This document shows, one piece after another, positions 14,360 to 54,631 of a stretch of 64,000 bases of DNA. Below the pieces are notes generated by a model. That model was not told where the DNA came from and did no database searches. It worked only from the letters and a program-made list of their open reading frames with translations. This DNA is from Acetobacteraceae bacterium ESL0709. GTDB taxonomy: Bacteria > Pseudomonadota > Alphaproteobacteria > Acetobacterales > Acetobacteraceae. The stretch's first letter is position 1; each line of letters begins with the position of its first letter. The stretch is taken from the NCBI GenBank assembly GCA_029433415.1, contig JAQTIA010000002.1:385501-449500 (forward strand), written 5' to 3'. The translations under genes were made by a program, and so were the position numbers.

Positions 14360-14557
14360 TATCAGGCGTAAGAGTTGGGAACGGGAGGTCTTTTTTGCAG
14401 TATGTTTTTCAAAAAGCATTGGAGAGACCGATCCTGTTAAGAGTATTTTATTGTCTATGGTTTAGTCAAATAACCGGTTGATTTCTTGACATGATTTTTA
14501 TAGATTATGGCCCTTTATGAGACGTGAAGTGTGTTCCCTACATGTGGGGATGACCCG
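14360..14557 (+). CRISPR. Decayed CRISPR leader with one degenerate repeat (locus A)
   Basis: ATTTCTTGACATGATTTTTA (from 14481) matches the leader core found at 35751, 38671 and 50381, where the sequence is ATTTCTTGACAGGATTTTTC. It is followed at 14531-14557 by GTGTTCCCTACATGTGGGGA plus TGACCCG, a repeat with about 2 bases missing and several changes. Further upstream ATCAGGCGTAAG (14361-14372) and GGGAACGG resemble the 5' part of the module at 49824 and 38122. No second repeat is seen, so there is no functional array here. Confidence 0.65.
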
Positions 14558-19420: not shown

Positions 19421-22126
19421 ATGCTTGATCCCGAAATTGTGAAATTGGCTCAGTTTTGGGGTAAGGCACGTCCTGCTGAAGGGGGTGACGTTACCATGCA
19501 CCCTCTTATGGCGCATATGCTTGATGTTGCCGCCGTGGCGATGGAGCTTCCCCTAGGCAGGCATTGCGGGCTGGATATACGTCTGGTCGGGTTTCTGGTG
19601 GCGTTGCATGATATTGGGAAATTGTCGCCGGCTTTTCAGGGGAAAGTCAAAGAATGTTGTCCGTCTTTTTTACCAGAAAAGACGACGGTTTCGCGTAACC
19701 ATGCGTCTGTGACTTTGCAGCTTCTGATAAAATGGTTTGATAATGAGAAAAGTTTTACAGGGTCTCTGGTAAAGCCACTAATTGTAGATCATTTCGAGAA
19801 TAAAACGGAGATTCTGAATTTACTCTGTCAGATCTTGGGTGGTGTTGCTGGTCATCACGGAGTGCCGACGATAGATGAGGATGGCAGGCTTGATGACTTG
19901 ACGATTGCTTATGCTGAGAGACTGACTGTTTTATTGCTGGATATCTTCCAGCCTCCTCCTTTTACACCCGACATTCTGGAGCATCTGCGTGAGGTGGAAT
20001 GGAGGCTTGCTGCCCTCACCATTCAGGCGGACTGGGTGGGGTCCCGTCAGGAATGGTTTCCCTATGTGGTAGCGGAAATGCTGCATGATCCAAAGAAATA
20101 TTTTCAGGAAGTTTCGTGCCATCAGGCCAGAAGGGCGGTTGAAAAAGCAGGTCTTTCAACGGTTCCGGTTTCTGAATTTGACGGCATAGGGCATCTTTTC
20201 CCGGAGATTAAAATGCCTTCTCCTCTTCAGTTATTGCTGGAAACAGTGCCTTTGCCTGAAGGGCCTGTTCTGGTCGTTATTGAGGACATGACAGGCAGCG
20301 GCAAGACAGAAGCGGCTCTGACAGTGGCTCATCGTCTGATGGAAAAAATGGCCGCGACCCATGAAATGGCGGGACTGTTTGTCGGTCTCCCCACGATGGC
20401 GACCGCCAACGCTATGTATAAACGTCTTGCAAAAGCCTATCGCGGTCTTTTTTGCGAGTCTGCACGTCCTTCTTTGGCTCTGGCCCATGGGCGGGCTGAT
20501 ATGAATGGAGATTTTCGTGAGGCCATCGTAGCGGAGGATTTTCGGGATAAAGGGGATCCTGATACGGCTGAATCCTGTTGTGCGTCGTGGCTGGCTGGTG
20601 AATCACGTCGGGCGTTGATGGCGCAGGTGGGGGTGGGGACGATTGACCAGGCTCTGCTTTCTGTATTGCCGGTGCGCTATGCAACCATCAGGCAGGCGGG
20701 TCTCGCTCATAAAGTGTTGTTGATTGATGAGTGTCATGCCTTCGATTCTTATATGAATGAGGAAATCTGCGCCCTTTTGCGTTTTCATGCCGCTTTGGGA
20801 GGATCCGCCATTCTGCTTTCGGCTACACTGACAAAGGCGCTCAGGCAGAGGCTGGTTAATGCGTTCCAGTCTGGTTGTGGCGACAAGGATCAGTCATCCC
20901 TGAAGTGCGATGCTTATCCACTGGTCACCATAGCGGGGCCTTCTGGTCCTCCATTGGAGTTGCCTTGCGCCTTGCGTCCCGGTCTGGAGAGGACCATCAG
21001 AATTGTGCGCCTTGATACGCTGCGTTCTGCGGAGGAAGTTTTACTGTCAGCCTATCGAAAAGGAGCTGCCTGCTGCTGGATACGCAATATGGTTGATGAT
21101 GTCATTCAGACGGCACGTGCCCTTGGTGAGCAGGGCGAGGATGTGACCGTCTTTCATGCCCGTTTTGCCATGATTGACAGACTGGAGGTTGAGAAGAAAA
21201 TTATTGCCCGCTTCGGGAAGAAGAGCAAAGGGACGGAGCGGACTGGGCTTCTGATTGCCTCGCAGGTGATTGAGCAAAGTCTTGATCTTGATTTTGACGT
21301 GTTATGCACGGATTTGGCGCCGATGGATCTGATTTTGCAAAGGGCGGGGCGTTTGCGACGTCATCACCGTGAGAGTCGGCCTGTCGATAAGGATGAGCTT
21401 TATGTGCTTTCGCCAAAGCCCGTGCCAGAGCCGGATCCATCATGGGTAAAATCCTTTTTGCCTGGTACAGCCGCGGTTTATAGGGATCCTGCCCTCTTAT
21501 GGCGCACGGCGAGAGTGCTCTTCCGGTGTGGTGTTGTGTCATTGCCCGGGGATATGCGGAGTTTGATTGAAGAAGTTGCTGATAATACCGCTCTTGGAGC
21601 GGTGCCGCCGGCTCTGGAATATGCTGCGAATGAAAAAGAAGGAGATGACATGGCCGGTGCGCGGATGGGGCGCCAAAATACCTTGCGTTTTGATGATGGA
21701 TATAAGCCTGATGATCTTCTCTGGGGGACAGAGCAAAAAACACCGACAAGGCTGGAAACGGGGCCTTCCATCATTCTTAGACTGGCTTTTGAAAAGGACG
21801 GAATGGTCCTACCGTGGGCGGTCAGAAAAGGGAAGGCTTTCTCATCACATCAGGAAAAACATGAAGCGTGGGCTTTTTCAGAAGTTTCTGTCAGAAGGAA
21901 CCGTCTGACAGAGGTTATGGTGCCAGATCATCTGGCAGAGTCTGTCCAAAAAGCGCGTTCGGGTTGGTCACGCTGGGAGCGGGATGATGATGAGAATTAT
22001 CTTCTTCTTGTTCTGGAGCTTGATGGTGGGGCATGGCATGGTAAAGGCGTTGACGAAAATGGGCGTGACGTTTTTATGCACTATAGCGAGTATTATGGGC
22101 TGGAATTTAGAAAAGGTCGGAAATAG
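19421..22126 (+). CDS. cas3: CRISPR-associated helicase-nuclease Cas3 (type I-E)
   Basis: Cas3 is recruited by Cascade to a bound target and unwinds and degrades the displaced DNA strand. The 901-residue protein has an N-terminal HD nuclease domain (H in MHPLMAHMLD, the metal pair in ALHDIGK at about residues 62-68, further histidines in RNHASV and AGHHG). A superfamily 2 helicase follows, with DMTGSGKTEAAL at about residue 288 and LLIDECHAFD at about 433. Motif VI-like QRAGRLRRHHR and a C-terminal domain complete it. All key residues appear intact and the length is normal. It is the first gene of an eight-gene operon; cse1 starts 98 bases later. Confidence 0.97.
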   Translation: MLDPEIVKLAQFWGKARPAEGGDVTMHPLMAHMLDVAAVAMELPLGRHCGLDIRLVGFLVALHDIGKLSPAFQGKVKECCPSFLPEKTTVSRNHASVTLQLLIKWFDNEKSFTGSLVKPLIVDHFENKTEILNLLCQILGGVAGHHGVPTIDEDGRLDDLTIAYAERLTVLLLDIFQPPPFTPDILEHLREVEWRLAALTIQADWVGSRQEWFPYVVAEMLHDPKKYFQEVSCHQARRAVEKAGLSTVPVSEFDGIGHLFPEIKMPSPLQLLLETVPLPEGPVLVVIEDMTGSGKTEAALTVAHRLMEKMAATHEMAGLFVGLPTMATANAMYKRLAKAYRGLFCESARPSLALAHGRADMNGDFREAIVAEDFRDKGDPDTAESCCASWLAGESRRALMAQVGVGTIDQALLSVLPVRYATIRQAGLAHKVLLIDECHAFDSYMNEEICALLRFHAALGGSAILLSATLTKALRQRLVNAFQSGCGDKDQSSLKCDAYPLVTIAGPSGPPLELPCALRPGLERTIRIVRLDTLRSAEEVLLSAYRKGAACCWIRNMVDDVIQTARALGEQGEDVTVFHARFAMIDRLEVEKKIIARFGKKSKGTERTGLLIASQVIEQSLDLDFDVLCTDLAPMDLILQRAGRLRRHHRESRPVDKDELYVLSPKPVPEPDPSWVKSFLPGTAAVYRDPALLWRTARVLFRCGVVSLPGDMRSLIEEVADNTALGAVPPALEYAANEKEGDDMAGARMGRQNTLRFDDGYKPDDLLWGTEQKTPTRLETGPSIILRLAFEKDGMVLPWAVRKGKAFSSHQEKHEAWAFSEVSVRRNRLTEVMVPDHLAESVQKARSGWSRWERDDDENYLLLVLELDGGAWHGKGVDENGRDVFMHYSEYYGLEFRKGRK

Positions 22127-22224
22127 TTAATTTTTTACAAATATAGGAGAGAAGTCAGTGTAGAAGATAAGGGTGGTTTTTTTATTGAAACCGTGCATTA
22201 TTATGTCTGGTATTATTCAGGATT

Positions 22225-23877
22225 ATGGATGTTATGGGTAAGGACGTTTATTTCAATCTTATTCATGATAAATGGCTTCCCGTGCGTCGTCGCTCAGGCA
22301 AGAGAGAGAGGATCAGGCCGGCTCAGATTGTCGATCAGAGTGAGAGTGATCCAGTTGTCTCTTTTGAGTGGTCCCGTCCTGATTTCCAGGTTGCCTGTTA
22401 TGAATTTATGATCGGCCTGCTGGCGACAGCCTTTCCTCCTGCAACAGTGGATGAGTGGAAGAAGCTTTGGCGTACCCCCCCGACGGTAGGGAAACTGGAT
22501 GAGACTTTTTCCAGGCTGGATGAGGCTTTTTATCTCAACCGTCCTGAAAAACGTTTCTTGCAGGATTTTTCAGAGCTTGAATCGTCCATTGAGCTTGTTG
22601 AGCGTCTGCTGATTGATGCGCCGGGAGACAGTACGGTCAAGAAAAATACGGATCTTTTTATTCATAGAGGCCGGATAAGGGCTATGAGCCTGCCTGATGC
22701 TGCCATGGCGCTCTATACGCTTCAGTCATGGGCGCCTAGTGGTGGAGCGGGAAATATGACCGGGATACGCGGGGGCGGCCCCATGGTTACGCTGGTGTTG
22801 CCACGCCGACCGGATCCGCAGGATAGTGAGAAAACGCTTCCTCCAACCTTATGGGATACGCTCTGGGCCAATACACCCTGCGGTAAGGTTGTCACAGAGC
22901 AGGATATGCCGAAGGTTTTTCCCTGGATGGCGCCGACCATTATTTCCGGCAAAAAGGGGCGGAAGATTGATCCCAAAGACAAGGCCGTTGACCTGCGTCA
23001 GTGCTGGTGGGGTATGCCAAGGCGGATCAGGTTGTGTTTCGGAACGGATGAAAAAGGCGAAATTCTGGTCACAGGCTGGAAACAGCGTCCTTATGGGCCG
23101 GATTATACAGGCTGGATTGGAGAGCCGTTGGATGTAAAGAGCGGGGTTGTCGTTCACCCCTTGACGCCACGTTATCGTGCCAAGGCCACTTCTGAGTGGC
23201 TTAGCCTGCATCCGCAGCCGGGGGGCGTTCATTATAAACATTGGGCCGGGATTGTTGCAGAGGTGGAAAACCGTCTTCCGGCCAGTAATGTCGCAAACTG
23301 GCGGAATAAACGCGCTTCCTGTACGGGCCTTAATAATGAGCAGAGCAAAAATGTCCGTCTGCTTACGGCTGGATATGATATGGATAATATGAAAGTCCGC
23401 AATTTTCTGGAAAGCGAAATGCCCTTGCCGGGTGATGGCGAGCCAGAATTGCAAAGGCTGCGTGATGAGTGGGCAAGGCATGCCATTGAAGGTGCCGCCA
23501 TGGTGCAGAGTGTTCTGAAACAGGTCATTAAGAACGCTATGCCCAATAAAAGGGATGCCTCTTATGACACGACTTTCTATACAACGATTGATCAGAAATT
23601 TACTGAACGGACGGAAAATAAATTTTTTGAATTGATCTTAAAGAAGGAAGACGGTGTGATTTTGAGTAGAGAGTGGCTCAAGTCAATAAGAGGTGCGGCA
23701 CTGGATATTTTTAGTGAAATTACTTCTTTAACGTCAGGAACAAAATTGACAAAAGCGGGGAAAATCGTGGCTGCTAAAAGGCGGTTGAGAGCGGTGTTAG
23801 GTTCTGAGAATTTGGCCAAAATACTCGGTCTTCCTTTTGAGATAATCCGTGAAAGGAAGATCAAAAATGCCAGATAA
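22225..23877 (+). CDS. casA: Type I-E Cascade large subunit Cse1 (Cas8e)
   Basis: Cse1 recognises the PAM, opens the target duplex and docks Cas3. The 550-residue protein opens with FNLIHDKWLPVRRRSGKRER, the signature N-terminus, followed by VSFEWSRPDFQVACYEF and LNRPEKRFLQD. WAPSGGAGNMTGIRGGGPM at about residues 170-190 lies in the region of the DNA-contacting loop. The C-terminus is helical. ATG 22225 is used; ATG 22234 is a plausible alternative. The 3' end overlaps cse2 by 11 bases. Confidence 0.95.
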   Translation: MDVMGKDVYFNLIHDKWLPVRRRSGKRERIRPAQIVDQSESDPVVSFEWSRPDFQVACYEFMIGLLATAFPPATVDEWKKLWRTPPTVGKLDETFSRLDEAFYLNRPEKRFLQDFSELESSIELVERLLIDAPGDSTVKKNTDLFIHRGRIRAMSLPDAAMALYTLQSWAPSGGAGNMTGIRGGGPMVTLVLPRRPDPQDSEKTLPPTLWDTLWANTPCGKVVTEQDMPKVFPWMAPTIISGKKGRKIDPKDKAVDLRQCWWGMPRRIRLCFGTDEKGEILVTGWKQRPYGPDYTGWIGEPLDVKSGVVVHPLTPRYRAKATSEWLSLHPQPGGVHYKHWAGIVAEVENRLPASNVANWRNKRASCTGLNNEQSKNVRLLTAGYDMDNMKVRNFLESEMPLPGDGEPELQRLRDEWARHAIEGAAMVQSVLKQVIKNAMPNKRDASYDTTFYTTIDQKFTERTENKFFELILKKEDGVILSREWLKSIRGAALDIFSEITSLTSGTKLTKAGKIVAAKRRLRAVLGSENLAKILGLPFEIIRERKIKNAR

Positions 23878-24514
23878 GCTCAGTGATTCTGATAAGTTCT
23901 TGGCTAGATTACTTATAAAATGGTGGCAGACAGCGACTGATATCAAAGACGGTGATCGCGCTTCATTGGCACGTCTTCGGCGGTGTAGCAATATTGCGGA
24001 GGCCGTGAATGAATGTGCTTTTATCGGCCTTTTAGGTTGTTGTGGCAGGGCTAGGGAGAATGATTGGGTGAAATTGGCTCTTGTAGCGTCTGTTCTGGCA
24101 TATATCAGAGGTGATCAAGGGGAATGCAAAAGAAAAAAGGAAGAAGCTGATGAAAAAAAGTCAGATAATTCTGATGAATATCAGCCTCCGGAATCGAATG
24201 CACGTTTGATTGGTCCAGACGCTGATAGAGTGGATGCCGAGGATGCGTCGTCAGCACTTTATAAAATAGTTCGTTTTCGGCGACTGTTGTCGGTGAAAAC
24301 AGTAGAAGAGTGTCAGCGCGCCTTTCGTCGCCTCGTTATGCTTATGAAAGGTAAGAGAATTATCAATATTGAGGATTTGGTTGCATCCCTTCTTCAATGG
24401 TCTGCCGATATTGCTGGTGAAGAAATTTCCGAGAAACGTCATTTAAAGTGGGTAGAGGATTATTATTGGAATACAGCCTCTTATAAAAACTCTCAAAAGA
24501 TGGATTCTGTCTAA
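23867..24514 (+). CDS. casB: Type I-E Cascade small subunit Cse2
   Basis: Cse2 is a helical protein, normally present as a dimer, that runs along the belly of Cascade and stabilises crRNA and target DNA. The 215-residue product from ATG 23867 contains KWWQTATDIKDGDRASLARL, RRCSNIAEAVNECAF and a conserved basic segment VRFRRLLSVKTVEECQRAF. An acidic/lysine-rich stretch (KRKKEEADEKKSDNSDE) occurs near residues 88-105. The frame is open six codons upstream, but ATG 23867 overlapping the cse1 stop is typical of this operon. Confidence 0.93.
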   Translation: MPDKLSDSDKFLARLLIKWWQTATDIKDGDRASLARLRRCSNIAEAVNECAFIGLLGCCGRARENDWVKLALVASVLAYIRGDQGECKRKKEEADEKKSDNSDEYQPPESNARLIGPDADRVDAEDASSALYKIVRFRRLLSVKTVEECQRAFRRLVMLMKGKRIINIEDLVASLLQWSADIAGEEISEKRHLKWVEDYYWNTASYKNSQKMDSV

Positions 24515-24581
24515 TTTTACAGTTTCGGTCTTAATTAAATAGTTTTCCGAGTTACATCGGTCTTACATAAGGAATTTTCTC

Positions 24582-25706
24582 ATGAGTCGTTTTCTTCAGT
24601 TGCATTTTTTGACCTTTTATCCTCCTTCAAATGTCAATCGTGACGATACAGGCGCGCCAAAGACGGCGACTGTGGGAGGTGTAACGCGATTGCGGATTTC
24701 ATCACAGGCACTGAAGCGGGCCTGGCGGACATCGCCTGTTTTTACAAAAACTCTTGAAGGCCATATGGGGCAACGGACGCAGCGTCTGGCTGAGGAAATC
24801 TTCACGCATTTGCGGGGGAAGGATATCAATGAGAAGGAGGCTACGGAGATTTCTCGTGAGATCGCTAAGGCCTTCGGTAAGGTGAAAGAAGAAAAACCTC
24901 AGAAAGAGACTGCTGACGATAAAAAAGAGAAGGAAGATAAAAAGGCCAAAAAGGAAAAAGTCGTTAATACTCTTCTGACTGAACAGCTTGTCTTTATTTC
25001 TCCCGATGAATTTGCGGCAGCTTATGACATGGCGGACAAGATGGCAGCCGGTGAAAAAATTGACCCGGTAAAAGAGAAGGAGGCCGCTTTACTCTTCAAG
25101 GCTGATACAGCCGTCGATATCGGGCTTTTTGGTCGTATGCTGGCTGATACGCCGACCAGAAACCGTGAAGCCGCTGCTCAGGTTGCTCATGCGATTACAA
25201 CGCACCGCGTCACAGTCGAAGATGATTATTACACTGCTGTTGATGATCTGAAAACAGCAGCGACTGACAGTGGCGCCGGCTTTATTGGAGAAGCGGGTTT
25301 CGGCTCTGGCGTTTTTTACCTCTATCTTTGTATTAATCTGGATCTGTTTAAGAAAAACCTTGGCCCACAGGCTGATGAGACCCTTATGAACAAGGCCCTC
25401 GCGGCTCTGATTGAGGCAGCGGCAACGGTAACACCTTCAGGGAAACAGAACAGCTTTGCCGCTCATGCTCGTGCCGGGTATATTCTGGCTGAAAAAGGCG
25501 ATGAGCAACCCCGCACTTTGGCCGGGGCTTTTGCCAAGCCTGTAACAGGTGGCGATCTGATGGATGAGTCCGTCAAGGCTCTCGGAAGATTCAGGGAGGA
25601 TTTGAGCACTATTTATGGTGCGGGTTGTAGTAAAGACTTTGAAGTATCAGTCGGGTCAAAAGAGAAGAAAACCCTCAAGGATCTCATAAAATTCTGCCAG
25701 CTATAA
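24582..25706 (+). CDS. casC: Type I-E Cascade backbone subunit Cas7e
   Basis: Cas7e, in six copies, forms the crRNA-binding backbone of Cascade. The 374-residue protein starts LQLHFLTFYPPSNVNRDDTG and continues VTRLRISSQALKRAWRTSPVF, the canonical N-terminus. DIGLFGRMLADTP, TPSGKQNSFAAHA and the C-terminal region follow. An unusual Lys/Glu-rich insertion, with KEKEDKKAKKEK at its core, occupies about residues 100-128 where homologs are shorter. AGGAATTTTCTC precedes the ATG. cas5e follows 10 bases later. Confidence 0.96.
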   Translation: MSRFLQLHFLTFYPPSNVNRDDTGAPKTATVGGVTRLRISSQALKRAWRTSPVFTKTLEGHMGQRTQRLAEEIFTHLRGKDINEKEATEISREIAKAFGKVKEEKPQKETADDKKEKEDKKAKKEKVVNTLLTEQLVFISPDEFAAAYDMADKMAAGEKIDPVKEKEAALLFKADTAVDIGLFGRMLADTPTRNREAAAQVAHAITTHRVTVEDDYYTAVDDLKTAATDSGAGFIGEAGFGSGVFYLYLCINLDLFKKNLGPQADETLMNKALAALIEAAATVTPSGKQNSFAAHARAGYILAEKGDEQPRTLAGAFAKPVTGGDLMDESVKALGRFREDLSTIYGAGCSKDFEVSVGSKEKKTLKDLIKFCQL

Positions 25707-25716
25707 GGACAGCGTC

Positions 25717-26634
25717 ATGGCACGGTTTTTGACCTTTGCCCTTGTTGCGCCTATGGCGTCTTTTGGGGATATTGCCGCCGGCGGTTTTCGCGATGGAGTG
25801 TTACGTCCTGCGCGTTCGGCTCTTTTGGGATTGATTGCTGGCTGTCTTGGCCTGACGCGTGAGGAAGAGACAGAACATCGGGCATTGTCAGATCATTACG
25901 GAATCGCATTATTGTGTTATAATAATGGCGATCTCCTGATTGATTATCATACGGCGCAGATGGCGCCAGCTATGCGCAAGCGGGTATATGCCACGCGAGC
26001 AGCAGAGCTTGCAGTCGATCCGACAGAGCTTTCAACTGTATTGTCCTATCGCGACTATCGTACAGGCAGCTGGCATCTTGCGGCTTTATGGTTGCGTGAT
26101 GATAAAGGCCCATGGACCCTCGAAGAATTGCAGAACGCACTGAACCGACCCGTTTTTACGCCTTATTGGGGGCGTAAATCATGCCCATTTTCTTTGCCTT
26201 TTACGCCTGAGATTATGGAAGAGGAAACAGCAGCGCAAGCTCTTTTGGAAAGGCATGCCAGCGGGAAAGAGTCGCAACTTTTTTATGGCGCCAGATTCCG
26301 TAAGGAGGAGCAGTCTCTTAAGGACGATGCTGAGGGGGACGAGGAGAGCGCGGAAGAGAAGAAGGAGGAGAAAGCTCCCGCCGCTTATCTTTTTTTCCGT
26401 AATCGGCAGTCCGGCCAGAAAGATAATAGCGCGATGACCATCGTGATGGACGCCCGGGATGTTGAGAGGCAGGGCGGTGCTTGTGTGCTCTCGCGCCGGG
26501 AAAATCGGCGTGATCAGCCATTATCGCGGACGCGTTGGGAGTTTGGCCTGCGCGAAGAAGCTGTTTTAACAGTGCCATCCTCAAAATTATTGTCCCCAAA
26601 AGCGTCAATGTCAGAAGCGGAGGTACAGTCATGA
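25717..26634 (+). CDS. casD: Type I-E Cascade subunit Cas5e
   Basis: Cas5e caps the 5' handle of the crRNA in Cascade. The 305-residue product begins FLTFALVAPMASFGDIAAGG and has LRPARSALLGLIAGCLGL, the RAMP-type N-terminal region. It continues YRDYRTGSWHLAAL and TPYWGRKSCPFSLPF. It is longer than most Cas5e (~225-250). The excess is an acidic insertion rich in Glu, Asp and Lys at about residues 190-220 (DDAEGDEESAEEKKEE). It overlaps cas6e by ATGA at 26631-26634. Confidence 0.94.
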   Translation: MARFLTFALVAPMASFGDIAAGGFRDGVLRPARSALLGLIAGCLGLTREEETEHRALSDHYGIALLCYNNGDLLIDYHTAQMAPAMRKRVYATRAAELAVDPTELSTVLSYRDYRTGSWHLAALWLRDDKGPWTLEELQNALNRPVFTPYWGRKSCPFSLPFTPEIMEEETAAQALLERHASGKESQLFYGARFRKEEQSLKDDAEGDEESAEEKKEEKAPAAYLFFRNRQSGQKDNSAMTIVMDARDVERQGGACVLSRRENRRDQPLSRTRWEFGLREEAVLTVPSSKLLSPKASMSEAEVQS

Positions 26635-27329
26635 GTGATCTTTATCTCTCGCGTGTTTCCCTGCGCCGTGATGCGTCAACGCGGGCGTTGACCGGCATCA
26701 TTTTGAAAGGCTCGGGAGGGGAGCAATGTAATGCGTCTCATTCCTTGCTCTGGTCGTTATTTGCAGATTCTCCTGATCGTGAGCGCGATTTTCTTTGGCG
26801 GCAGATGGAGGGGGGCTCGTGCCTCATTCTTTCTGAAAGACTGCCGGAAGATCGGCATGCGCTTTTTGATGTGGAAAGCAAGGGTTTTGAACCCAATCTC
26901 CAATCGGGAGATAAATTGCAGTTTCAGCTTTGCGTAAATGCTACGGTCGCCCGGAAAAATGATGAGCAGAAAGGAAAGCGTGAAAGAGGAAAACGTCATG
27001 ATATCGTGATGGATGCCTTATATAAAATCCAGCGAGATCAACGGGCTGAGAAAAGGGTCGAGTTAACGCACAACGCGGCTTTATCATGGATGTCTGCTCA
27101 AGGAGACAAGGCAGGTTTCAGGATGACAGAGGCGTTTGATGTTAAATCCTGTGACATTCTTAAAATTCCCAGAAAACAATTTTATAAATACGCGACATTT
27201 GGCGTGATGGATGTGACAGGTGTGCTGGAAGTCACCGATCCAGAGCGTTTTCTTGGGAAAGTGAAAGAGGGTTTCGGTCGTGCCAAGGCTTTTGGCTGCG
27301 GTCTTATGCTCATCCGTCGTGCCTGTTAA
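26631..27329 (+). CDS. casE: Type I-E crRNA endonuclease Cas6e
   Basis: Cas6e cleaves the pre-crRNA at the base of each repeat hairpin and stays bound to the 3' end. The 232-residue protein starts MSDLYLSRVSLRRDASTRAL. It has CNASHSLLWSLF with the likely catalytic His at residue 37, and ends with the Gly-rich GFGRAKAFGCGLMLIRRA. A basic insertion (KGKRERGKRH) interrupts the middle. I chose ATG 26631, overlapping the cas5e stop, over an upstream in-frame ATG inside cas5e. Confidence 0.95.
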   Translation: MSDLYLSRVSLRRDASTRALTGIILKGSGGEQCNASHSLLWSLFADSPDRERDFLWRQMEGGSCLILSERLPEDRHALFDVESKGFEPNLQSGDKLQFQLCVNATVARKNDEQKGKRERGKRHDIVMDALYKIQRDQRAEKRVELTHNAALSWMSAQGDKAGFRMTEAFDVKSCDILKIPRKQFYKYATFGVMDVTGVLEVTDPERFLGKVKEGFGRAKAFGCGLMLIRRAC

Positions 27330-27332
27330 ATC

Positions 27333-28590
<1,258 letters not shown>

Positions 28591-35488: not shown

Positions 35489-35720
35489 GATTCTGTCAAT
35501 ATGATTTTCAGGAGACTGAAGGTTCTTAAGTAATATCAGTGGATTATGCAGGGAGGGGGAGAAGAGGTGCGGAGACATTGCGTGATATCCGACGTTCTTT
35601 CAGGCGCTCCAGGAAGGGAAATTTTATGGCAGACAGCTTCTGGAAAACAGGAGTTCTTGCAGGGAGCGGTCACCTGCCGTGCGCCGTGCCGTAAAGACAT
35701 CCTGAAAGCCTCTTCTGACT

Positions 35721-35826
35721 GCCTATAATTTAGGCATATGATCGGTAGATTTCTTGACAGGATTTTTCTTATGGAATAACAATCACTTCCAACAAGCCTG
35801 TTCCCCGCACGCGCGGGGATGAGCCG
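35721..35826 (+). CRISPR. CRISPR leader with a single repeat and no spacer (locus B)
   Basis: The leader from GCCTATAATTTAGGCATATG onward carries TTGACA at 35754-35759 and a TAACAA -10-like hexamer 17 bases later. Its last bases, CACTTCCAACAAG, equal those at loci C and D. It is followed directly by a 29-bp repeat at 35798-35826 that differs from the array consensus at two positions (first base C and GAGCCG in place of GAACCG). No second repeat follows within 150 bases. It is either a virgin array or one trimmed by deletion. Confidence 0.85.
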
Positions 35827-35977: not shown

Positions 35978-36150
35978 CTTCATGGAGGCAAAGAGGAAAG
36001 AAAAGCTTTGCATAAGTGAACTATTTTTGCTCTCTGAAAGCCAGATGGAGCAGATAAGCCCTTATATCCTCTTCCTCTCTCTCATGTCTCTCTCCCGTGA
36101 CAGGATATTCACGACTCTGACGGAACAGGCAGGACTCTCTTACGACTTAT
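35978..36150 (+). pseudogene. IS5-type transposase relic, left of the TIR pair
   Basis: The frame reads LCISELFLLSESQMEQISPY and then SLSRDRIFTTLTEQAGLSYD before a stop, the N-terminal part of an IS5-type transposase with a large internal deletion. GACAGGATATTCACG at 36099 and AGGACTCTC match the relic at 37830-38015 on the other side of the TIR pair. The rest of 35827-36347 holds no gene I can support. Confidence 0.65.
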
Positions 36151-36347
36151 AAGTTATGCAACACAGCTTAAAGTGCATGGCGTAGCGGCTTCTTTGCTTG
36201 AAAAGGGATTTTTCTACGCCATATCGGGCAAATAAAAGGAGGGGGAAGTCAAAACTTCATGTTGCCTATGATGGACAGGAATAGGTTTTCCCTCCCCCTG
36301 CGTCATATCATGACAGATCAGTGCCCCCGAGAGCTTTGATAAATTTT

Positions 36348-37040
36348 TTAAAAAATATCATCAAGAGGATTGAGACTGTTAGAAAGCTCCTTAAACTCCA
36401 TTTTCTGAAGAAAATCAGAGACGTTAAAATTAATTTTATGCTTAATTTTATGCTGAAAATCTTCTGTACTTACTGATTCTTGCAATATTTTATTCTTCGC
36501 AAAGAAATCACACATATATAGTTCATGAAATATCCACGGTGACTGGGTAATGTTAATGTCATTTCTTAGTTTCGTAGAATTTTCACTCTCCAAGAAAAGA
36601 AAAATTCTACACTTCTCAATCATAGATGTCAAAAGCGACGTTAGCATAATATACATCGAAGAGTAATAATAGCTATGCCCGGGATCATTTTCTCTGAGCT
36701 TATTTATAATTTCTTCGACGTTATACCATACCGACGAATCAACAAAACACCTTTTTTGATATGTTTTTTCTATATATCCTTTCAGACGCAAAACATCCTT
36801 TTCATCCATATGTGAATGTGATATGAAAACATCGTAATTTATATCATTTGGGAAATATTTTTTAATAATATCGTCTACATTAATCTCATTTTTAAGTAAA
36901 TCCCTTAATGCTAAGGAAAATTCTGACCTATCAAAAGGTCCTTTAGAAGTTTTTTTATTGTTTTCTTTGTTGAGAGATATGCTATTTTCTAATAATGAAT
37001 GGCCCTGCTCATTGATCTCTACCCTGACTGCCTTTTGCAT
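36348..37040 (-). CDS. TIR-domain protein (candidate anti-phage NADase or sensor)
   Basis: The 230-residue protein has a hydrophilic N-terminus of about 65 residues. A TIR-like core follows: INYDVFISHSHMDEKDVLRL (strand A and box 1, about residues 68-87), YIEKTYQKRCFVDSSVWYNV, SSMYIMLTSLLTSMIEKCRI and ITQSPWIFHELYMCDFF. This matches bacterial TIR proteins whose core ends in a SPW(I)xxE element. TIR effectors often cleave NAD+; a catalytic Glu may lie in VEEIINKLRE, but this is uncertain. It has a strong Shine-Dalgarno (GGAGG). AT-rich, it diverges from a membrane protein gene and both lie between matching transposase relics. Confidence 0.72.
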   Translation of the reverse strand: MQKAVRVEINEQGHSLLENSISLNKENNKKTSKGPFDRSEFSLALRDLLKNEINVDDIIKKYFPNDINYDVFISHSHMDEKDVLRLKGYIEKTYQKRCFVDSSVWYNVEEIINKLRENDPGHSYYYSSMYIMLTSLLTSMIEKCRIFLFLESENSTKLRNDINITQSPWIFHELYMCDFFAKNKILQESVSTEDFQHKIKHKINFNVSDFLQKMEFKELSNSLNPLDDIF

Positions 37041-37156
37041 TTCTCTACCTCCTAAAAATTAGATTACAGCCTAGCCATGCTAACACGGTAAAATAGCGGG
37101 GCGTTTTACAAATACAATAATCCCCTATACGCTAGCTTTTCTTCAGTATAACAGAC

Positions 37157-37168
37157 CTTAAGCTTAAG
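37157..37168. promoter_or_regulatory. Perfect 12-bp palindrome between divergent TIR and membrane genes
   Basis: CTTAAGCTTAAG lies in the 202-base divergent intergenic region, where the promoters of both genes must be. It may bind a dimeric regulator or may be chance in AT-rich DNA. Confidence 0.35.
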
Positions 37169-37242
37169 TGCAGTAAATATATAAGCTCTCTCAGAAAATC
37201 ACACTATATCCTCGTGATCCTTTTAAGATTAGGTTTCTCATC

Positions 37243-37782
37243 ATGTTTCATTCAAGAAAAAAATCTCTTCTCACTGATCGTGAGCTGGAGGAAATCAAAC
37301 AAGCGGCTGAAGATAAAAGAAAATATCTTGAAATCATTCAGGCTGTTATTGGCCGTATGTCAGCCTGTTCAGACGCTACCAGAGCGGGTACGGTCACATT
37401 TCTTATAGCTATCTTCAGCTATATGGCGACTCAGAATAACAGATATGAAGCCTCTCATCTGCTCTCAGGGAAACTATGTTTCGGCTATCTGATCTTTATC
37501 GTCATCATGTGGCATTTAAGCGCCTATTATCTCAGGCAAAGTCGGTTATTTCGTCAATTATACGCCCATGTCATTAAAATCAAATATCCAGATAAAATTG
37601 ATTTCAGTCTTTTAACAAAGGAATATGAGTCGAGAGTGCATTCATGTATCCGAATTATGTTTAGCAGGTCTTTATATCCTATTTATGTATTCTGTGTTCT
37701 GATAACACTCTTGGCTGGACCTTTTCTTTCCTATTTCTCAAAATTTTTCTGTGCTTTATGCTCAGGCCTTATTAAATTTTGA
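37243..37782 (+). CDS. Small membrane protein paired with the TIR gene
   Basis: The 179-residue protein starts with a charged helical N-terminus (DRELEEIKQAAEDKRKYLE). IIQAVIGRMSACSDATRAG runs into TM1 (TVTFLIAIFSYMA, about 50-63), then TM2 (CFGYLIFIVIMWHLSAYYL, about 78-97) and TM3 near the C-terminus (YPIYVFCVLITLLAGPFLSYF, about 148-168). The cytosolic helix, RM...G-T motif and three helices resemble small uncharacterised membrane proteins found beside TIR genes. A pore-forming or membrane-anchoring effector is possible; that is inference. I do not recognise a named family. Confidence 0.6.
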   Translation: MFHSRKKSLLTDRELEEIKQAAEDKRKYLEIIQAVIGRMSACSDATRAGTVTFLIAIFSYMATQNNRYEASHLLSGKLCFGYLIFIVIMWHLSAYYLRQSRLFRQLYAHVIKIKYPDKIDFSLLTKEYESRVHSCIRIMFSRSLYPIYVFCVLITLLAGPFLSYFSKFFCALCSGLIKF

Positions 37783-37829: not shown

Positions 37830-38015
37830 ATGAATCAGCTATTTTTATCATCTGAAAGCCTGACGAAGCGAATACGCCCTCAGGGCGTATGGTTCACATA
37901 AAACACTTTACAATCGTTTTTTCTGCTGGAGCCATCTTGGGGCTTTCGACAGGATATTCACGGCTCTGGTGGAACCGTCAGGACTTTCACGGAAGTGGTC
38001 AGGTGTTATCAAAGC
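37830..38015 (+). pseudogene. IS5-type transposase relic, right of the TIR pair
   Basis: MNQLFLSSESL at 37830 and, further on, AFDRIFTALVEPSGLSRKW (frame through 37944-38000) match the same transposase regions as the relic at 35978-36150. GACAGGATATTCACGGCTCTG at 37948 is nearly identical to the left copy. A short hairpin (ATACGCCC/GGGCGTAT, 37872-37890) sits between the two parts. Confidence 0.65.
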
Positions 38016-38235
38016 TGACGAAATTATAGAGAAAGCCGGGCAGGGTTAGGAAACCCAGGGCGGATACTATTTTGTTTCAGGCGTTCACAAAATCGGAAGA
38101 AAAAATAGCCCTGACTCTCTTCGGGCTTGCCTCATGCGGTCATCGGGCGTAAGCATGGGGAACGGACCGAACAAGTCTACTACCCCTTGTCCGATCCTGA
38201 CCACCAACTGAGCAATCTTTAGAGGATCTCAGCTA

Positions 38236-38379
38236 ATGACTGTTTATGTCTATATCATGGGGCTATTGGCCCCATCCAGTGCTGTGCGCACGCCAATTTC
38301 TTATGGAAGTGGCGGGGCTTTTGTGCGGCTTTTTCTCTTCAGGAAATATCGAAAACGGGTCTGTCCTGCACCTCTGTAA
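38236..38379 (+). CDS. Conserved 47-residue ORF in the CRISPR module (copy C)
   Basis: ATG 38236 opens MTVYVYIMGLLAPSSAVR, TPISYGSGGAFVRLFLFRK, YRKR..., ending at TAA 38379. The same ORF without indels exists at 49942-50085, differing at about nine residues, four of them in the last five to six positions. AGAGGATCT upstream is a possible ribosome site. The product would be basic and partly hydrophobic. No family is recognised. Conservation of the frame, not of function, is what the sequence shows. Confidence 0.4.
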   Translation: MTVYVYIMGLLAPSSAVRTPISYGSGGAFVRLFLFRKYRKRVCPAPL

Positions 38380-38381
38380 CG

Positions 38382-38531
38382 GTGAGTGATGCGGCAAGGG
38401 GGAACGGACCGATAACAGCCTTGCCCTTCCTTACCTTACAGAACGACTCTCTGGATCGCATGGTGCGTGTTTTCTTCCGGTCACATGACAAAAAACCGGA
38501 AGCGACGGATCAACCGGAATGGGGAAGATGA
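38382..38531 (+). CDS. Possible second small ORF in the CRISPR module (copy C)
   Basis: GTG 38382 follows the first ORF by two bases and gives 49 codons: VSDAARGNGPITALPF, LQNDSLDRMVRVFFRSHD, KKPEATDQPEWGR. In copy D the same stretch has two single-base indels that shift and then restore the frame, so the middle is not conserved as protein. It may be structured RNA or a decayed gene rather than a real coding region. Confidence 0.22.
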   Translation: MSDAARGNGPITALPFLTLQNDSLDRMVRVFFRSHDKKPEATDQPEWGR

Positions 38532-38593
38532 GTCTCTCCCGTGGTTTTTCATGGCGTGCCTTTAAGGAGACGCCTGAAAGATCAGTCCTGTAT

Positions 38594-38638
38594 GGCCTTA
38601 TCGCTCTTCTTTTGGGGGTGCGATAAGGCCTTTTTTTA
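38594..38638 (+). terminator. Strong terminator separating the module from the CRISPR leader (copy C)
   Basis: GGCCTTATCGC (38594-38604) pairs with GCGATAAGGCC (38620-38630), followed by seven T. Copy D has the same hairpin with A changed to G in the 3' arm, giving a G-U pair that keeps the stem. Confidence 0.93.
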
Positions 38639-38639
38639 T

Positions 38640-38717
38640 TGCCTATAATTTAAGCACATAATCGGTAGATTTCTTGACAGGATTTTTCCTATGGAATAAC
38701 AACCACTTCCAACAAGA
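38640..38717 (+). promoter_or_regulatory. CRISPR leader and promoter of the array (locus C)
   Basis: TTGACA at 38674-38679 and TAACAA at 38697-38702, spaced by 17, form a sigma70-like promoter. It would start transcription 5-10 bases before the first repeat. The same 78-base leader is found at loci B and D, and in decayed form at A. Confidence 0.78.
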
Positions 38718-38929
38718 GTGTTCCCCGCACGCGCGGGGATGAACCGAGGTTACGTGCCCGCACGATGCGGCGCTGGACGTGTTCCCCGCACGCGCGGGGA
38801 TGAACCGCGCATTTTGTGTTGGTGCAGATGCTGGGCTATGTGTTCCCCGCACGCACGGGGATGAACCGACATTCAACATGGTTAGAGATCTTATCAAGGA
38901 GTGTTCCCCGCACGCGCGGGGATGAACCG
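38718..38929 (+). CRISPR. Type I-E CRISPR array, four repeats and three spacers
   Basis: 29-bp repeats start at 38718, 38779, 38840 and 38901, each GTGTTCCCCGCAC then GCGCGGGGATGAACCG (the third has A for G in the loop-side arm). The three spacers are each exactly 32 bp (38747-38778, 38808-38839, 38869-38900). The repeat palindrome CCCCGC/GCGGGG and the 29+32 pattern are hallmarks of type I-E, fitting the cas operon 10 kb upstream. The last repeat ends 22 bases before the stop of the convergent gene. Confidence 0.98.
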
Positions 38930-38951
38930 CCATTATCTCATTTCTGAACTC

Positions 38952-39902
38952 TCAGTGAGGCCAGAAATGGGATGAGGCTGTGCTTATGATCCATAATAGG
39001 CCCGTGATCCACATGACGATCATGCTGATATAATGGGCGCTACCGCCTCCAGGGAGGTGTGGGACAGCCAGTCTTTCCACAGTCTTTTTCAGGTCATTCA
39101 GTGCGTTTGCGACGCTATTGACGTCACTATGCGTGGCGTAATCGCCCTTGGGCTGAAGAGCTGTCTCGGCTGTTTGGGTGCGCTCCGTTTCTTTCTGGAT
39201 ATCATCGGCGGGAGATGAGGGGGTGCTGGCGGCAAGCTGGGCCTGTAATTGGGCAATGTCCTCACTCTGCTGCTGGAATTTCTGGTCAATAAAAGGCGCG
39301 CTGTAAAAGCGCGTCCATTGCGGGGGAAGGTCGGGGTTGCTGGGGTCACGGGGTGCGACGAGAATATCGCTGTTTGAATCCTGAATGATCCATTGCACGG
39401 CGGACTGACCCTGACCAATCCACGCGCTGCCGACACTATTGGCGGGCAGGTAATGACGATTATTCTGGTCATCAAGAAAATAAAGTTCCCCACGTGGTGG
39501 AGACGCTTTATCAAGCGCGATTGAAACGATTCTGCCGTCCTGTGTCTCGAAGGAGGGCGAGACGATCACTTCGCTCAGGCTGCTGGTCTGTGCGGGGTCT
39601 TCTTTATACTGTGCGATTACCAGATGCGGCGGCTCATTGGGTTTCTGGTTGGTATAAAGACGCAGCTCTGTATGGGGATAGGCGTTCTTGTCGCTTTCAA
39701 GACCAGCGCCATTATAACGAATATAGGAATAGGAAAAGCCGCCATAATAATCGCGCATGCCAAGAGCGGTTTCGATACCACCATCATATTCGAGACGGCC
39801 GCCAATAATATCGCCACCATTAAGATGGTTTTTGTCACTGAAATTTGTATCAAGTGGATAATCAAGCATCTGGCCGATGCCGGAAGATTTATTGTCTGTC
39901 AT
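38952..39902 (-). CDS. Hypothetical protein with coiled coil and C-terminal membrane helix
   Basis: This 316-residue protein has no recognised domain. The N-terminal two thirds look beta-rich (IIGGRLEYDGGIETALGMRD, YSYIRYNGAGLESDKNAYPH, YFLDDQNNRHYLPANSVGSAW). Residues about 215-285 form a Gln/Glu-rich coiled coil (QQQSEDIAQLQAQLAAS, NALNDLKKTVERL). The last 25 residues contain one TM helix (ISMIVMWITGLLWIIS). The layout suggests a surface or phage-derived protein anchored by its C-terminus. The end nearly abuts the CRISPR array. Confidence 0.6.
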   Translation of the reverse strand: MTDNKSSGIGQMLDYPLDTNFSDKNHLNGGDIIGGRLEYDGGIETALGMRDYYGGFSYSYIRYNGAGLESDKNAYPHTELRLYTNQKPNEPPHLVIAQYKEDPAQTSSLSEVIVSPSFETQDGRIVSIALDKASPPRGELYFLDDQNNRHYLPANSVGSAWIGQGQSAVQWIIQDSNSDILVAPRDPSNPDLPPQWTRFYSAPFIDQKFQQQSEDIAQLQAQLAASTPSSPADDIQKETERTQTAETALQPKGDYATHSDVNSVANALNDLKKTVERLAVPHLPGGGSAHYISMIVMWITGLLWIISTASSHFWPH

Positions 39903-43994: not shown

Positions 43995-44486
43995 CTGACC
44001 ATTGTTCGGGAAAGGGAAGAGAGGAAAAGATGTATTGCTTCTTCCTATGTCTGAAGTGATCTGACAAGCGATTTCTTTACCCGTTATGTGTGCGCTATAA
44101 TTACATATACAGGCGTGGATTATGCCTCTTTCTTATAGAGCTTGCGGGCCTTTGATGTAGCCTTTGAAAAGGGTTTAACATCCCGGAACCATTAAGGGCG
44201 TTTGTTACACGCACCCGTGTGACAGGGCGTGGGGAGAAAGATTAAAGGGCATAAATATTTTAAAGAGTCAGCTCTGTATAATATCTCTTCGGCATGAGGG
44301 TTTACAGCAGTGCCATGGTGTCACGTGTGGGGTCTCGTTTTTTAATATTCTCCCATAGGAAGCCTTATGTTTATAATAATTGGTGAAGTTTTTTATGTGC
44401 TTTAATAGTGTCAGACAGAGAGGGATGGGGAGTTTTGTAAATTATTACGATACAAGAATAAATTAGCGAGCCTGAGCGATATATAG
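43995..44486. other. Gene-poor intergenic region
   Basis: About 490 bases of mixed composition without a supportable ORF, RNA gene or IS end. It lies upstream of the membrane protein gene at 43458-43994 and should hold its promoter. Confidence 0.5.
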
Positions 44487-44522
44487 AACAACCCCGGAGT
44501 GTGTTGTCCGGGGTTGTTTTAG
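44487..44522. terminator. Terminator after the repeat-protein gene (first copy)
   Basis: AACAACCCCGG (44487-44497) pairs with CCGGGGTTGTT (44508-44518), T-rich on the plus side. A near copy with the same sequence follows the paralogous gene at 45248-45282. Confidence 0.85.
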
Positions 44523-44552
44523 TCGTGTTATATTATAGGGAAGGGAGGATTA

Positions 44553-45095
44553 TTATTTATTTTGGTTCTGGAGGAGCATGAGGGCGCCTACGGCGTTGCT
44601 GCCGGCGGGGACCTGGCCTATGTTGTTGCCGGAGCTGTCATAGACGCTGCCTTGACTGTCCACGCGACCAGCCTGACGACCATTAATGATGACATTGCCG
44701 TTGGAGCCGCTGCTGGCGACGATATCGCCATGTTCACCATGAATGTCGCCATTAGCATCCACATGCCCTGCGCGGCGGCCATTATAGATGATGGTGCCGT
44801 CCTTGGGATCAATAAGCCCTACTGAATCGCCCGATTCATTATAAACCTCACCATGCTGGTCAATACGCCCCACCTGACGACCATTGGCAAAGATCGGTTC
44901 CCAATGGGGGGTGGTGTCAGCTTGCTGCCTGTGCCTTTCATTATATTCTTTGCTTTCACCTGCTGGTGGTTTGCCGGTGGCTGCGTTAACGAATCCTGAA
45001 GAGCCTGGGTAACTAATTAATTGTGCGTGAGAAGGTTGTAAGGCTATGCCAGAAGCTAACAACGCCGTTCCTAAAAGCAGAATTCTAAGTTTCAT
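44553..45095 (-). CDS. Secreted short-repeat beta protein, paralog 1
   Basis: The 180-residue protein has a signal peptide (RILLLGTALLASGIALQPSHA). The mature part is built of repeated turns of the form (I/V)xNGxxxGxxDxxGxxY: FANGRQVGRIDQHGEVYN, YNGRRAGHVDANGDIHG, INGRQAGRVDSQGSVYD, each followed by SGxxIGxI. This resembles the short-repeat '4-fold beta flower' layout. ATG 45095 is chosen because GAGGAG precedes it. The C-terminus GSNAVGALMLLQNQNK is identical in paralog 2. Function is unknown; probably periplasmic. Confidence 0.7.
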   Translation of the reverse strand: MKLRILLLGTALLASGIALQPSHAQLISYPGSSGFVNAATGKPPAGESKEYNERHRQQADTTPHWEPIFANGRQVGRIDQHGEVYNESGDSVGLIDPKDGTIIYNGRRAGHVDANGDIHGEHGDIVASSGSNGNVIINGRQAGRVDSQGSVYDSSGNNIGQVPAGSNAVGALMLLQNQNK

Positions 45096-45247
45096 AATTT
45101 TTCTCCTCAAAGAGAATTACCTATGGCCGGAGATCTATAATGTTAACGGTTCTTTTATTTCTGCCTTTGCTGAGATCAGGAAGAATAAAAGATATCGTGA
45201 ATTCTTATGATAAAGAAATAAGCTTGCTACTCTCTGCTGCCTATAAG

Positions 45248-45282
45248 AACAACCCCGGAATGTGTTGTCTGGGGTTGTTTTT
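45248..45282. terminator. Terminator after the repeat-protein gene (second copy)
   Basis: AACAACCCC (45248-45256) pairs with GGGGTTGTT (45271-45279), followed by TTT. It is nearly identical to the hairpin at 44487, showing that gene and terminator were duplicated together. Confidence 0.85.
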
Positions 45283-45310
45283 GTAGTGTTATTTTATAGA
45301 AACAGGAGAG

Positions 45311-45862
45311 TTAATTTTTATTCTGGTTCTGGAGGAGCATGAGGGCGCCTACGGCGTTGCTGCCGGCGGGGACTTTGCCTATGTCACGACCGGCATTATC
45401 ATATACTTCGCCATTATGGTCTACCCGGCCGGCTGGATCACCGTGGATCAGGACATTCCCATCAGAGCCGCCGCTGGCTACGATCCTGCCGCGATTGTCA
45501 CGTATGTCTCCGCCGGAATCAACATGTCCAACGGGATCGCCATGATAAAGGACTGTACCTCCATCAGGGTCGACGACCCCTACTGACCGGCCGCGATTGT
45601 CAAAAACCTCGCCATGCTGGTCAATTCGTCCGACTGGATCCCCATGGAGAAAAATCGTTTCCGAATGGGGGGTGGTGTCGGCTTCAGGGGGATGGTCCTC
45701 GGGATGATAATATTTCGTACCTATCCCCGTATCCGGCTTTCCGGTAGCTGTATCGACGAATTCGGAAGAACCGGGATACATGATCCATTGGGCGTGAGAT
45801 GGTTTTACGAGATTACTGACAGTCAGAATGGTAACTCCCAAGAGCAAAAATTTATGTTTCAT
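45311..45862 (-). CDS. Secreted short-repeat beta protein, paralog 2
   Basis: The 183-residue protein has a signal peptide (FLLLGVTILTVSNLVKPSHA) followed by SYPGSS-like MYPGSSEFVDTATGKPD, as in paralog 1. Its repeats use HGDPxGRxDxxGE in place of NGRQxGRxD: FLHGDPVGRIDQHGEVFDN, YHGDPVGHVDSGGDIRDN, IHGDPAGRVDHNGEVYDN. The systematic change of NGRQ/R to HGDP across all repeats is striking. AAGGA precedes the ATG. It is followed by a copy of the same terminator. Confidence 0.7.
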   Translation of the reverse strand: MKHKFLLLGVTILTVSNLVKPSHAQWIMYPGSSEFVDTATGKPDTGIGTKYYHPEDHPPEADTTPHSETIFLHGDPVGRIDQHGEVFDNRGRSVGVVDPDGGTVLYHGDPVGHVDSGGDIRDNRGRIVASGGSDGNVLIHGDPAGRVDHNGEVYDNAGRDIGKVPAGSNAVGALMLLQNQNKN

Positions 45863-49792: not shown

Positions 49793-49941
49793 ATAGCGTG
49801 TCGCTTCGGTGAGAGGGTGTTTCCGGGCTTGCCTCTTGGGTCGATCAGGCGTAAGCATGGGGAACGGACCGAACAAGTGTTTGGACGCCCTTGTCCGATC
49901 CTGATCACTAACTGAGTCCACTTTGCAAGGTATCTCAGCCA

Positions 49942-50085
49942 ATGACTGCTTATGTCTATATCATGGGGCTATTCGCTCCATCCAGTGCTGTGCGCACGCC
50001 AATTTCCTATGGAATCGGCGGGGCTTTTGTGCGGCTTTTTCTCTTCAGGAAATATCGGAAACGGATCGCTTTCGTGCCTCTGTAA
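49942..50085 (+). CDS. Conserved 47-residue ORF in the CRISPR module (copy D)
   Basis: ATG 49942 opens MTAYVYIMGLFAPSSAVR, TPISYGIGGAFVRLFLFRK, YRKRIAFVPL and stops at 50085. Length equals that of copy C and there are no indels. Substitutions include both silent and replacement changes, with the tail differing most. No family is recognised. Context right before a CRISPR leader is shared with copy C. Confidence 0.4.
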   Translation: MTAYVYIMGLFAPSSAVRTPISYGIGGAFVRLFLFRKYRKRIAFVPL

Positions 50086-50306
50086 TGATGAATGGTGTGG
50101 CAAGAGGGAACGGACCGATAACAGCCTTGCTATCCTCATCTTACAGAACGACTCTCTGGGTCGCATGGTGCGTGTTTTCTTCCGGTTACACGACACAAAA
50201 ACCGGAAGCGACGGATCAACCGGAATGGGGAAGATGAGTCTCTCCCGTGATCTTTTATGGTGTGTCTTTAAAGTTTAAAGCCGCACCTGAAAGACCAGTC
50301 CTGTAT

Positions 50307-50350
50307 GGCCTTATCGCTCTTCTTTTGGAGGTGCGGTAAGGCCTTTTTTA
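50307..50350 (+). terminator. Terminator before the CRISPR leader (copy D)
   Basis: GGCCTTATCGC (50307-50317) pairs with GCGGTAAGGCC (50333-50343), one pair being G-U, followed by TTTTTT. Equivalent to 38594-38638. Confidence 0.92.
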
Positions 50351-50458
50351 TTGCCCAATATTTGAGCATATAATCGGTAGATTTCTTGACAGGATTTTTC
50401 CTATGGAATAACAATCACTTCCAACAAGAGTGTTCCCCGCACGCGCGGGGATGAACCA
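50351..50458 (+). CRISPR. CRISPR leader with a single repeat and no spacer (locus D)
   Basis: The leader carries TTGACA at 50386-50391 and TAACAA 17 bases later. The repeat at 50430-50458 equals the array consensus except for the last base (A for G). The next 180 bases show no second repeat and run into IS relics. Leader and first repeat are the parts needed for spacer acquisition, so this could be a naive array or one truncated by IS activity. Confidence 0.88.
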
Positions 50459-54481: not shown

Positions 54482-54631
54482 GTAATTCCCCGCCTGTGAG
54501 GGGATGAACCGACTTCACGACAGGACTGACTGAACCGCGTCCCGTAATCCCCGTGAGGGGAGGGAGTGGTTTCGTGATGGGACTGTCAGAGCCGTTTTCA
54601 AAGTTCCCCGCCTTATGAGGGGATGATCACC
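54482..54631 (+). CRISPR. Fossil CRISPR array with three degenerate repeats (locus E)
   Basis: Repeat-like units start at 54482 (GTAATTCCCCGCCTGTGAGG then GGATGAACCG), 54544 (GTAATCCCCGTGAGGGGAGG, shortened) and 54602 (AGTTCCCCGCCTTATGAGGG then GATGATCACC). The first spacer-like interval is 32 bases and unit spacing is 62 and 58, fitting a 29+32 array that lost bases. The stem loop differs from the main repeat (CCTGTGAG in place of CACGCGCG). No leader is found. The rest of 54230-54803 shows no gene. Confidence 0.7.

Follow-up and report, generated by a model that had tools for sequence, protein, structure and literature searches.

Type I-E CRISPR arrays of Escherichia coli have a 29-nt repeat with a CCCCGC/GCGGGG stem, an AT-rich leader and cas1e/cas2e genes, all of which recur in the genome studied here. 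In E. coli, as stated in the accessible part of PMC10011333, cas1-cas2 and a single repeat suffice for naive integration, leader elements are essential, and the last G of the repeat is supplied by the AAG PAM that comes in with the protospacer. A similar PAM origin of base G29 is apparent in our material, and the premise of a previous sequence-only reading of the locus, that a leader plus one repeat is enough for Cas1-Cas2, agrees with the naive integration described in that part of the source. Unlike the E. coli case, the present genome has nine leaders, none of them beside the cas genes and none followed by more than three spacers, and eight of them are joined to an upstream module (hereafter X). 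Orphan I-E arrays have also been described in Bombella and Aristophania, members of the same bacterial family; the accessible text of PMC12282179 reports no canonical array in Aristophania vespae, orphan arrays of 4, 6, 4 and 3 spacers being present instead, and in that portion it makes no mention of empty leader loci, an upstream module or nine-fold dispersal. The ectopic repeats of CreTA modules (PMC9458426 and PMC8501985, both in their accessible parts) are comparable in being solo or paired repeats outside ordinary arrays.

Here we describe locus B, a leader followed by a single repeat, in a window of 64,000 nucleotides (the whole stretch of DNA analysed), together with its relatives in the same genome. 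Taken by itself, locus B is ordinary; the larger finding is a family of X-leader-repeat loci to which B is the exception.

Locus B and its neighbourhood

The features of the window that belong to the system are collected in the table.

Table. Features of the CRISPR leader-repeat family and of the cas operon in the window
Feature	Position	Strand	Remarks
Type I-E cas operon (cas3, cse1, cse2, cas7, cas5, cas6e, cas1e, cas2e)	19421..28590	+	all eight genes
Decayed leader with repeat-like sequence	14437..14557	+	relic of the family
Locus B leader	35720..35797	+	starts with dyad TGCCTATAATTTAGGCA (35720-35736), ends at the repeat; 85-94% identical to the eight other leaders
Promoter-like TTGACA-17-TAACAA in locus B leader	35754..35782	+	TTGACA 35754-35759, TAACAA 35777-35782, 17 nt spacing; same positions in all nine leaders of the genome
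Locus B single type I-E repeat CTGTTCCCCGCACGCGCGGGGATGAGCCG	35798..35826	+	28-nt repeat with one adjoining base; differs from the consensus by C1 and A26G
Module X, copy C (structured RNA-like element of ~500 nt)	38122..38639	+	ends in GGCCTTATCGC/GCGATAAGGCC stem and T-run
Leader of array C	38640..38717	+	
Array C	38718..38929	+	4 repeats, 3 spacers
Module X, copy D	49823..50349	+	
Locus D, leader and one repeat	50352..50458	+	repeat perfect over 28 nt; zero spacers

The leader of locus B is complete, as had been read from the sequence, and its promoter-like hexamers are conserved: TAACAA is kept in all 15 leaders compared (nine from this genome and six from the genus mate G001), and TTGACA is exact in 13 of these 15. 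The description of one 29-bp repeat carrying two changes also proved correct against the family consensus, C1 being common to locus L013 and A26G private to B. The repeat has a private change at one of 26 positions that are invariant in the other loci and a single mismatch in the 25-nt core, located outside the stem, so that the repeat hairpin is intact, as are the promoter hexamers. In the 400 nt downstream no second repeat was found; the best residual match had 14 mismatches in 28 positions, the commonest value among 280 control stretches, which upholds the earlier statement that a second repeat is absent. Lacking both a second repeat and a spacer, locus B falls outside a strict definition of an array (at least two repeats and a spacer) and is to be regarded as an acceptor site. 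It does possess the components of a type I-E acquisition locus, namely a leader with hexamers, a I-E repeat with its hairpin, and complete cas genes in the genome. The distance of 7 kb to the cas genes given previously matches the 7.1 kb measured between the end of cas2 (28590) and the locus B leader. No repeat or array was found beside the cas operon, and this single operon presumably serves all nine loci in trans.

The genes that had been called a TIR pair encode a ThsB-like TIR protein (36348-37040, PADLOC E 1.1e-30) and a PDC-M50A-type protein (37243-37782, PADLOC E 2.7e-23) that is hydrophobic by eye; a Pfam match was found for neither. The two genes are divergent and occupy 36348-37782, between loci B and C. 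They are a possible defence pair.

Nine dispersed leader-repeat loci

A search of the genome (2,249,670 bases in five contigs) with a 151-nt locus B query revealed nine leader-repeat loci, the eight others matching the query at E values of 5.8e-41 to 1.5e-35. They hold 16 spacers in all: none in B, D (50430) and L015, two each in L009 and L012, and three each in C (38718), L013, L014 and L016. The 25-nt repeat core, allowing up to three mismatches, gave 26 genome matches vs none for the reversed control, and 25 of the 26 lie in the nine loci. The remaining one, L010 (C2:537477), is a leaderless solo repeat with a degenerate repeat about one spacer length upstream and a hairpin after it, and represents an array remnant. 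Decayed members of the family were observed at 14437-14557 of the window and at L125 and L011. A further decayed, array-like stretch is present at about 54483-54620 of the window, with TAATTCCCCGCCTGTGAGGGGATGAACCG and, further downstream, AAGTTCCCCGCCTTATGAGGGGATGATC; no leader was seen there. The view of B taken in isolation had overlooked this nine-locus family, in which three loci are empty and B alone is without module X.

Pairwise comparison of the sequences downstream of the last repeat revealed nothing directly adjoining that is common to the loci; matches were limited to B and C, which trivially overlap in the window, and to B and D, which share two inverted stretches further out. An inverted repeat of about 184 bp, 74% identical, was seen at 36098-36279 (near B) and 51443-51626 (after D), another dispersed intergenic element. 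The window also contains a 300-nt direct repeat with 74% identity (44485-44784 and 45246-45545).

The occupied sister arrays bear the signature of genuine adaptation. Of the 16 non-terminal repeats, 15 have G as base 29, vs 2 of the 9 terminal or solo ones, a bias which, given the PAM origin of this base in E. coli, indicates that the native repeat is probably 28 nt long and that spacers probably entered by the ordinary I-E route. The final G of the locus B repeat is uninformative on adaptation. A local BLAST of the 16 spacers gave non-self matches of 15-16 nt only, and no protospacer was found. When array C was compared with phage records, five were matched, over ranges that fit the repeats, and leader C plus repeat had no match in phage records. 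Two short unannotated 'phage' records, OR851156.1 and OR845838.1, match the whole of array C at ~70% in 4 and 9 places, respectively; they look as if they hold a I-E array, possibly through host contamination.

Regarding the distribution of spacers, a model that scatters 16 spacers randomly over nine equal sites gives at least three empty sites with P=0.098 and no site above three spacers with P 0.32; the joint P for both is 0.0036, a post hoc figure chosen after seeing the data. Since three empty loci out of nine are compatible with chance, the emptiness of B is no evidence of a special state. The overall pattern, with three empty loci, none with one spacer and none with more than three, could mean that the empty loci are unused.

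Dispersed leader loci are also present in genus mate G001, which has six, the occupied ones with 3, 6, 4 and 4 spacers. These counts fit the orphan arrays reported in the accessible text of PMC12282179, and G001 is probably Aristophania vespae; the genome of the window, which belongs to the Acetobacteraceae, is thus probably also of the genus Aristophania. Different DNA precedes the leaders of G001, and a stretch of ~220-280 nt, counting the leader, is common to three of its six loci. Dispersed leader loci thus occur in both genomes of the genus that were compared, and X may be a passenger or a driver in the lineage of the window. The gene adjoining locus B, norB, is 71% identical in G001, and a search of 5.25 kb beside the G001 norB for leader and repeat gave only weak, chance-level matches. 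In the same genome, cas1 was matched as two overlapping pieces in different frames, one of them with a stop (C1:410087-411036; L144 and L145), so cas1 may be broken there despite the six leader loci. Tandem repeats of ~80 bp lie directly upstream of one leader-bearing array of G001 (L128, C1:1717633-1718516), and a short-unit tandem repeat precedes another leader locus (L129a).

Module X upstream of the leaders

About 500 nt directly upstream of the leader (module X) are shared by eight of the nine loci, all but B. Alignments of X plus leader are 84-89% identical among seven loci and 74-77% for L009, and pairwise homology reaches upstream to about -570 to -632 relative to the repeat. A covariance model revealed 11 copies of X in the genome, and a DNA search found the same 11, one of them in two pieces: eight lie upstream of intact leaders, two upstream of decayed ones (L125 and L011), and one diverged copy has no leader (L146). 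At locus B the sequence before the leader only faintly resembles the T-rich end of X, in an alignment that reaches to -92; this suggests, in terms of sequence, a loss of X. The 3' end of X is an 11-bp stem followed by a T-run immediately before the leader; the stem was absent from an automatic scan, probably because that scan allows loops of at most 8 nt and this one is longer. In each aligned copy the motif GGAACGGACCGA is present twice.

The base-pairing pattern of X is conserved. The consensus fold of ten copies (L146 left out) has 129 pairs, with 96.9% of the cells able to pair, a structure derived from the same alignment and thereby favoured over slid controls. A different possibility is that X and leader are functionless, co-duplicated segments, the structure of X being the nested palindromes of a dead MITE-like repeat. 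Two-sided changes were observed at 17 pairs vs 7.0 in shuffles, with none of 500 shuffles as high, which argues against such a dead element, with the proviso that the relatedness of the copies can by itself, even where there is no structure, raise the count above that of shuffles. The consensus energy of -133.4 kcal/mol, vs -73.7 ± 5.1 in 40 column shuffles and -119.2 on the minus strand, where there is no covariation bonus, points the same way, as do the long invariant stretches present in copies that are yet only 74-90% identical overall. On the other hand, further pair types are not significantly enriched (82 of 500 shuffles as high), folding of single sequences gave a more significant z for the minus strand (-4.49) than for the plus strand (-3.65), copy L146 stands without a leader, and no sigma-70-like site was found in 38000-39050, around copy C, by a scan so insensitive that it also misses leader C; all this would suit a functionless X. 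At those pairs that are mostly Watson-Crick, G-U exceeds A-C by 54 to 18, which points to the plus strand, on which the structure had been chosen. Considering both sides, we hold the functionless origin to be somewhat unlikely.

A protein-coding X was considered because of a 40-aa ORF beginning ATGGGGCTATTGGCCCCAT. The start of this ORF itself folds into a hairpin that shows compensatory changes: U-A replaces C-G in two copies, and L146 has GGAGC/GCTCC. RNA structure was therefore preferred.

The X-leader-repeat unit sits among unrelated genes, and adjoining flanks are not shared; it therefore behaves as a dispersed cassette. A same-strand ORF lies upstream of nine of ten X copies (mechanically called ORFs, L146 left out). 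The upstream genes with family matches encode a WD40 protein after CobW, MlaD, Fic, an aldo-keto reductase, a member of the phosphorylase superfamily and LysR, the ORF before L014 having no family match. A tie of X to one gene family was discarded, since the upstream and downstream genes with family matches are unrelated. Target-site duplications were not evident by eye at the cassette ends. The Y1 transposase family PF01797 had no match in the genome, and TnpB (PF07282) had one, whose 20.7 bits fall short of the cut-off of 26.3; X is thus without the Y1 transposase or TnpB in the genome that would mark an IS200/IS605-type element.

X had no DNA match in 298 other genomes of the family (G001 included, two candidates scored per genome), and a covariance model covering 161 positions, run under strict filters, found none in 248 other Acetobacteraceae genomes, again with G001 included. 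No match was found in plasmids, and an exact 20-mer of X was absent from viral contigs; a looser pattern seen in two viral contigs is likely due to chance, as blastn with X gave no match to them at E<=1. There was no Rfam match at gathering score, and up to E=5 only two weak ones (E 0.23 and 1.3) appeared, far below the family cut-offs. Neither X nor the X-leader-repeat cassette was found in the open-access literature, and the family looks new. Large ornate bacterial RNAs include HEARO, ROOL, GOLLD and OLE, and ERIC, REP/BIME and Correia are dispersed intergenic repeats. X resembles the former in size and complexity and the latter in being multicopy, intergenic and dispersed; it differs from both in having no Rfam match and in being followed, on the 3' side, by a CRISPR leader and repeat.

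Competence, origin and significance of the empty locus

From their sequences, the leader and repeat of locus B look fit for spacer uptake, and B is probably a usable acceptor site. We favour with moderate confidence the interpretation that B is an unused, zero-spacer acquisition site in a genome where type I-E memory is spread over nine tiny leader-bearing loci. The previous suggestion of a naive or a trimmed array is supported in part, as regards the apparent fitness of leader and repeat and the full cas set, and the locus may be either naive or trimmed. We infer that B is still competent and that Cas1-Cas2 acts there in trans: the proteins, supplied by the operon at 7 kb distance, would recognise the junction of leader and repeat, cut the 28-nt repeat at both ends and insert a 33-nt fragment, after which transcription from the leader promoter and Cas6e cutting would yield crRNAs. 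At present, with one repeat and no spacer, locus B would give no complete crRNA. The number of leader-repeat loci would be explained by a spread of the X-leader-repeat cassette through the genome that left loci in many places, B being the one member with an intact leader without X, either because X was lost or because leader and repeat were copied alone. On this view X would be transcribed, and the cassette would have moved as one piece.

If B were instead a trimmed array, its former spacers would all have been lost through recombination of the first and last repeats. A homologous deletion of this kind leaves exactly a leader and one repeat, without trace, so that naive and fully trimmed loci look alike in one genome, and our comparison covered one genome per species. 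The change A26G is in the 3' portion of the repeat, a region that also diverges in the terminal repeats of L009, L014 and L016, which would suit a trimmed array; the lack of residual repeats downstream of B and the solo repeats of the empty loci D and L015, perfect over 28 nt, speak against it. These perfect repeats indicate that empty loci need no degenerate stage, and we regard trimming as unlikely. The private changes at leader position -58 and at repeat position 26, the latter in the 5' handle of the crRNA, the absence of X and the graded decay within the family would also suit a dying relic in which uptake has ended, on its way to the decayed state of window 14437, L011 and L125. The hexamers and hairpin of B are intact, however, and its leader has a single private change in 61 columns that are invariant among the other eight, where private changes number from none to three, the leader of L009, a locus occupied by two spacers, being more changed (3/63). 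The change at -58 falls inside a weak IHF-like match (one mismatch, at about -59 to -47) present in the eight other leaders, the best such match anywhere in the B leader having two mismatches; as 19 of 400 random 60-mers also have a one-mismatch match, this difference is given little weight. A relic in terminal decay is, in our view, doubtful, and less to be expected than a trimmed array.

Far less probable is that the repeat of B and the sequence after it act as a CreA-kind, crRNA-like guide silencing a nearby toxin or other gene, which would predict a small RNA beginning AUGAGCCG at B. CreTA modules do have one or two ectopic repeats (PMC9458426, accessible part). The repeats of creA, as described in the accessible text of PMC8501985, are degenerate, and two-repeat creA genes have no leader, whereas in B the leader is complete and the repeat near-canonical. 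Moreover, no guide target stood above control: for the 32 nt after B, the best PAM plus seed match in ~183 kb of own sequence, both strands, was 13/17, and values of 13-14 were reached by 8 of 60 random 32-mers.

Beyond the unused acquisition site that we favour for B, a more speculative proposal concerns the family as a whole. X-leader-repeat could be a mobile or self-spreading RNA cassette that plants CRISPR acquisition sites, the RNA or DNA of X aiding its spread or controlling leader use, with memory kept in many small, independently promoted arrays; we consider this rather improbable. The roles of multiple CRISPR arrays per genome are called poorly understood (PMC12814883, in its accessible part). 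The genome described here contains a graded cassette series, with occupied, empty and decayed loci, X without leader and leader without X, so that the origin of extra leader-bearing arrays can be tested within one strain. X, for its part, would be a large structured RNA of a new kind, linked to CRISPR loci, and, should the cassette prove mobile, locus B would be a natural 'X-minus' control. Even if X is silent, the genome would remain of use as a natural case of memory divided among many small arrays.
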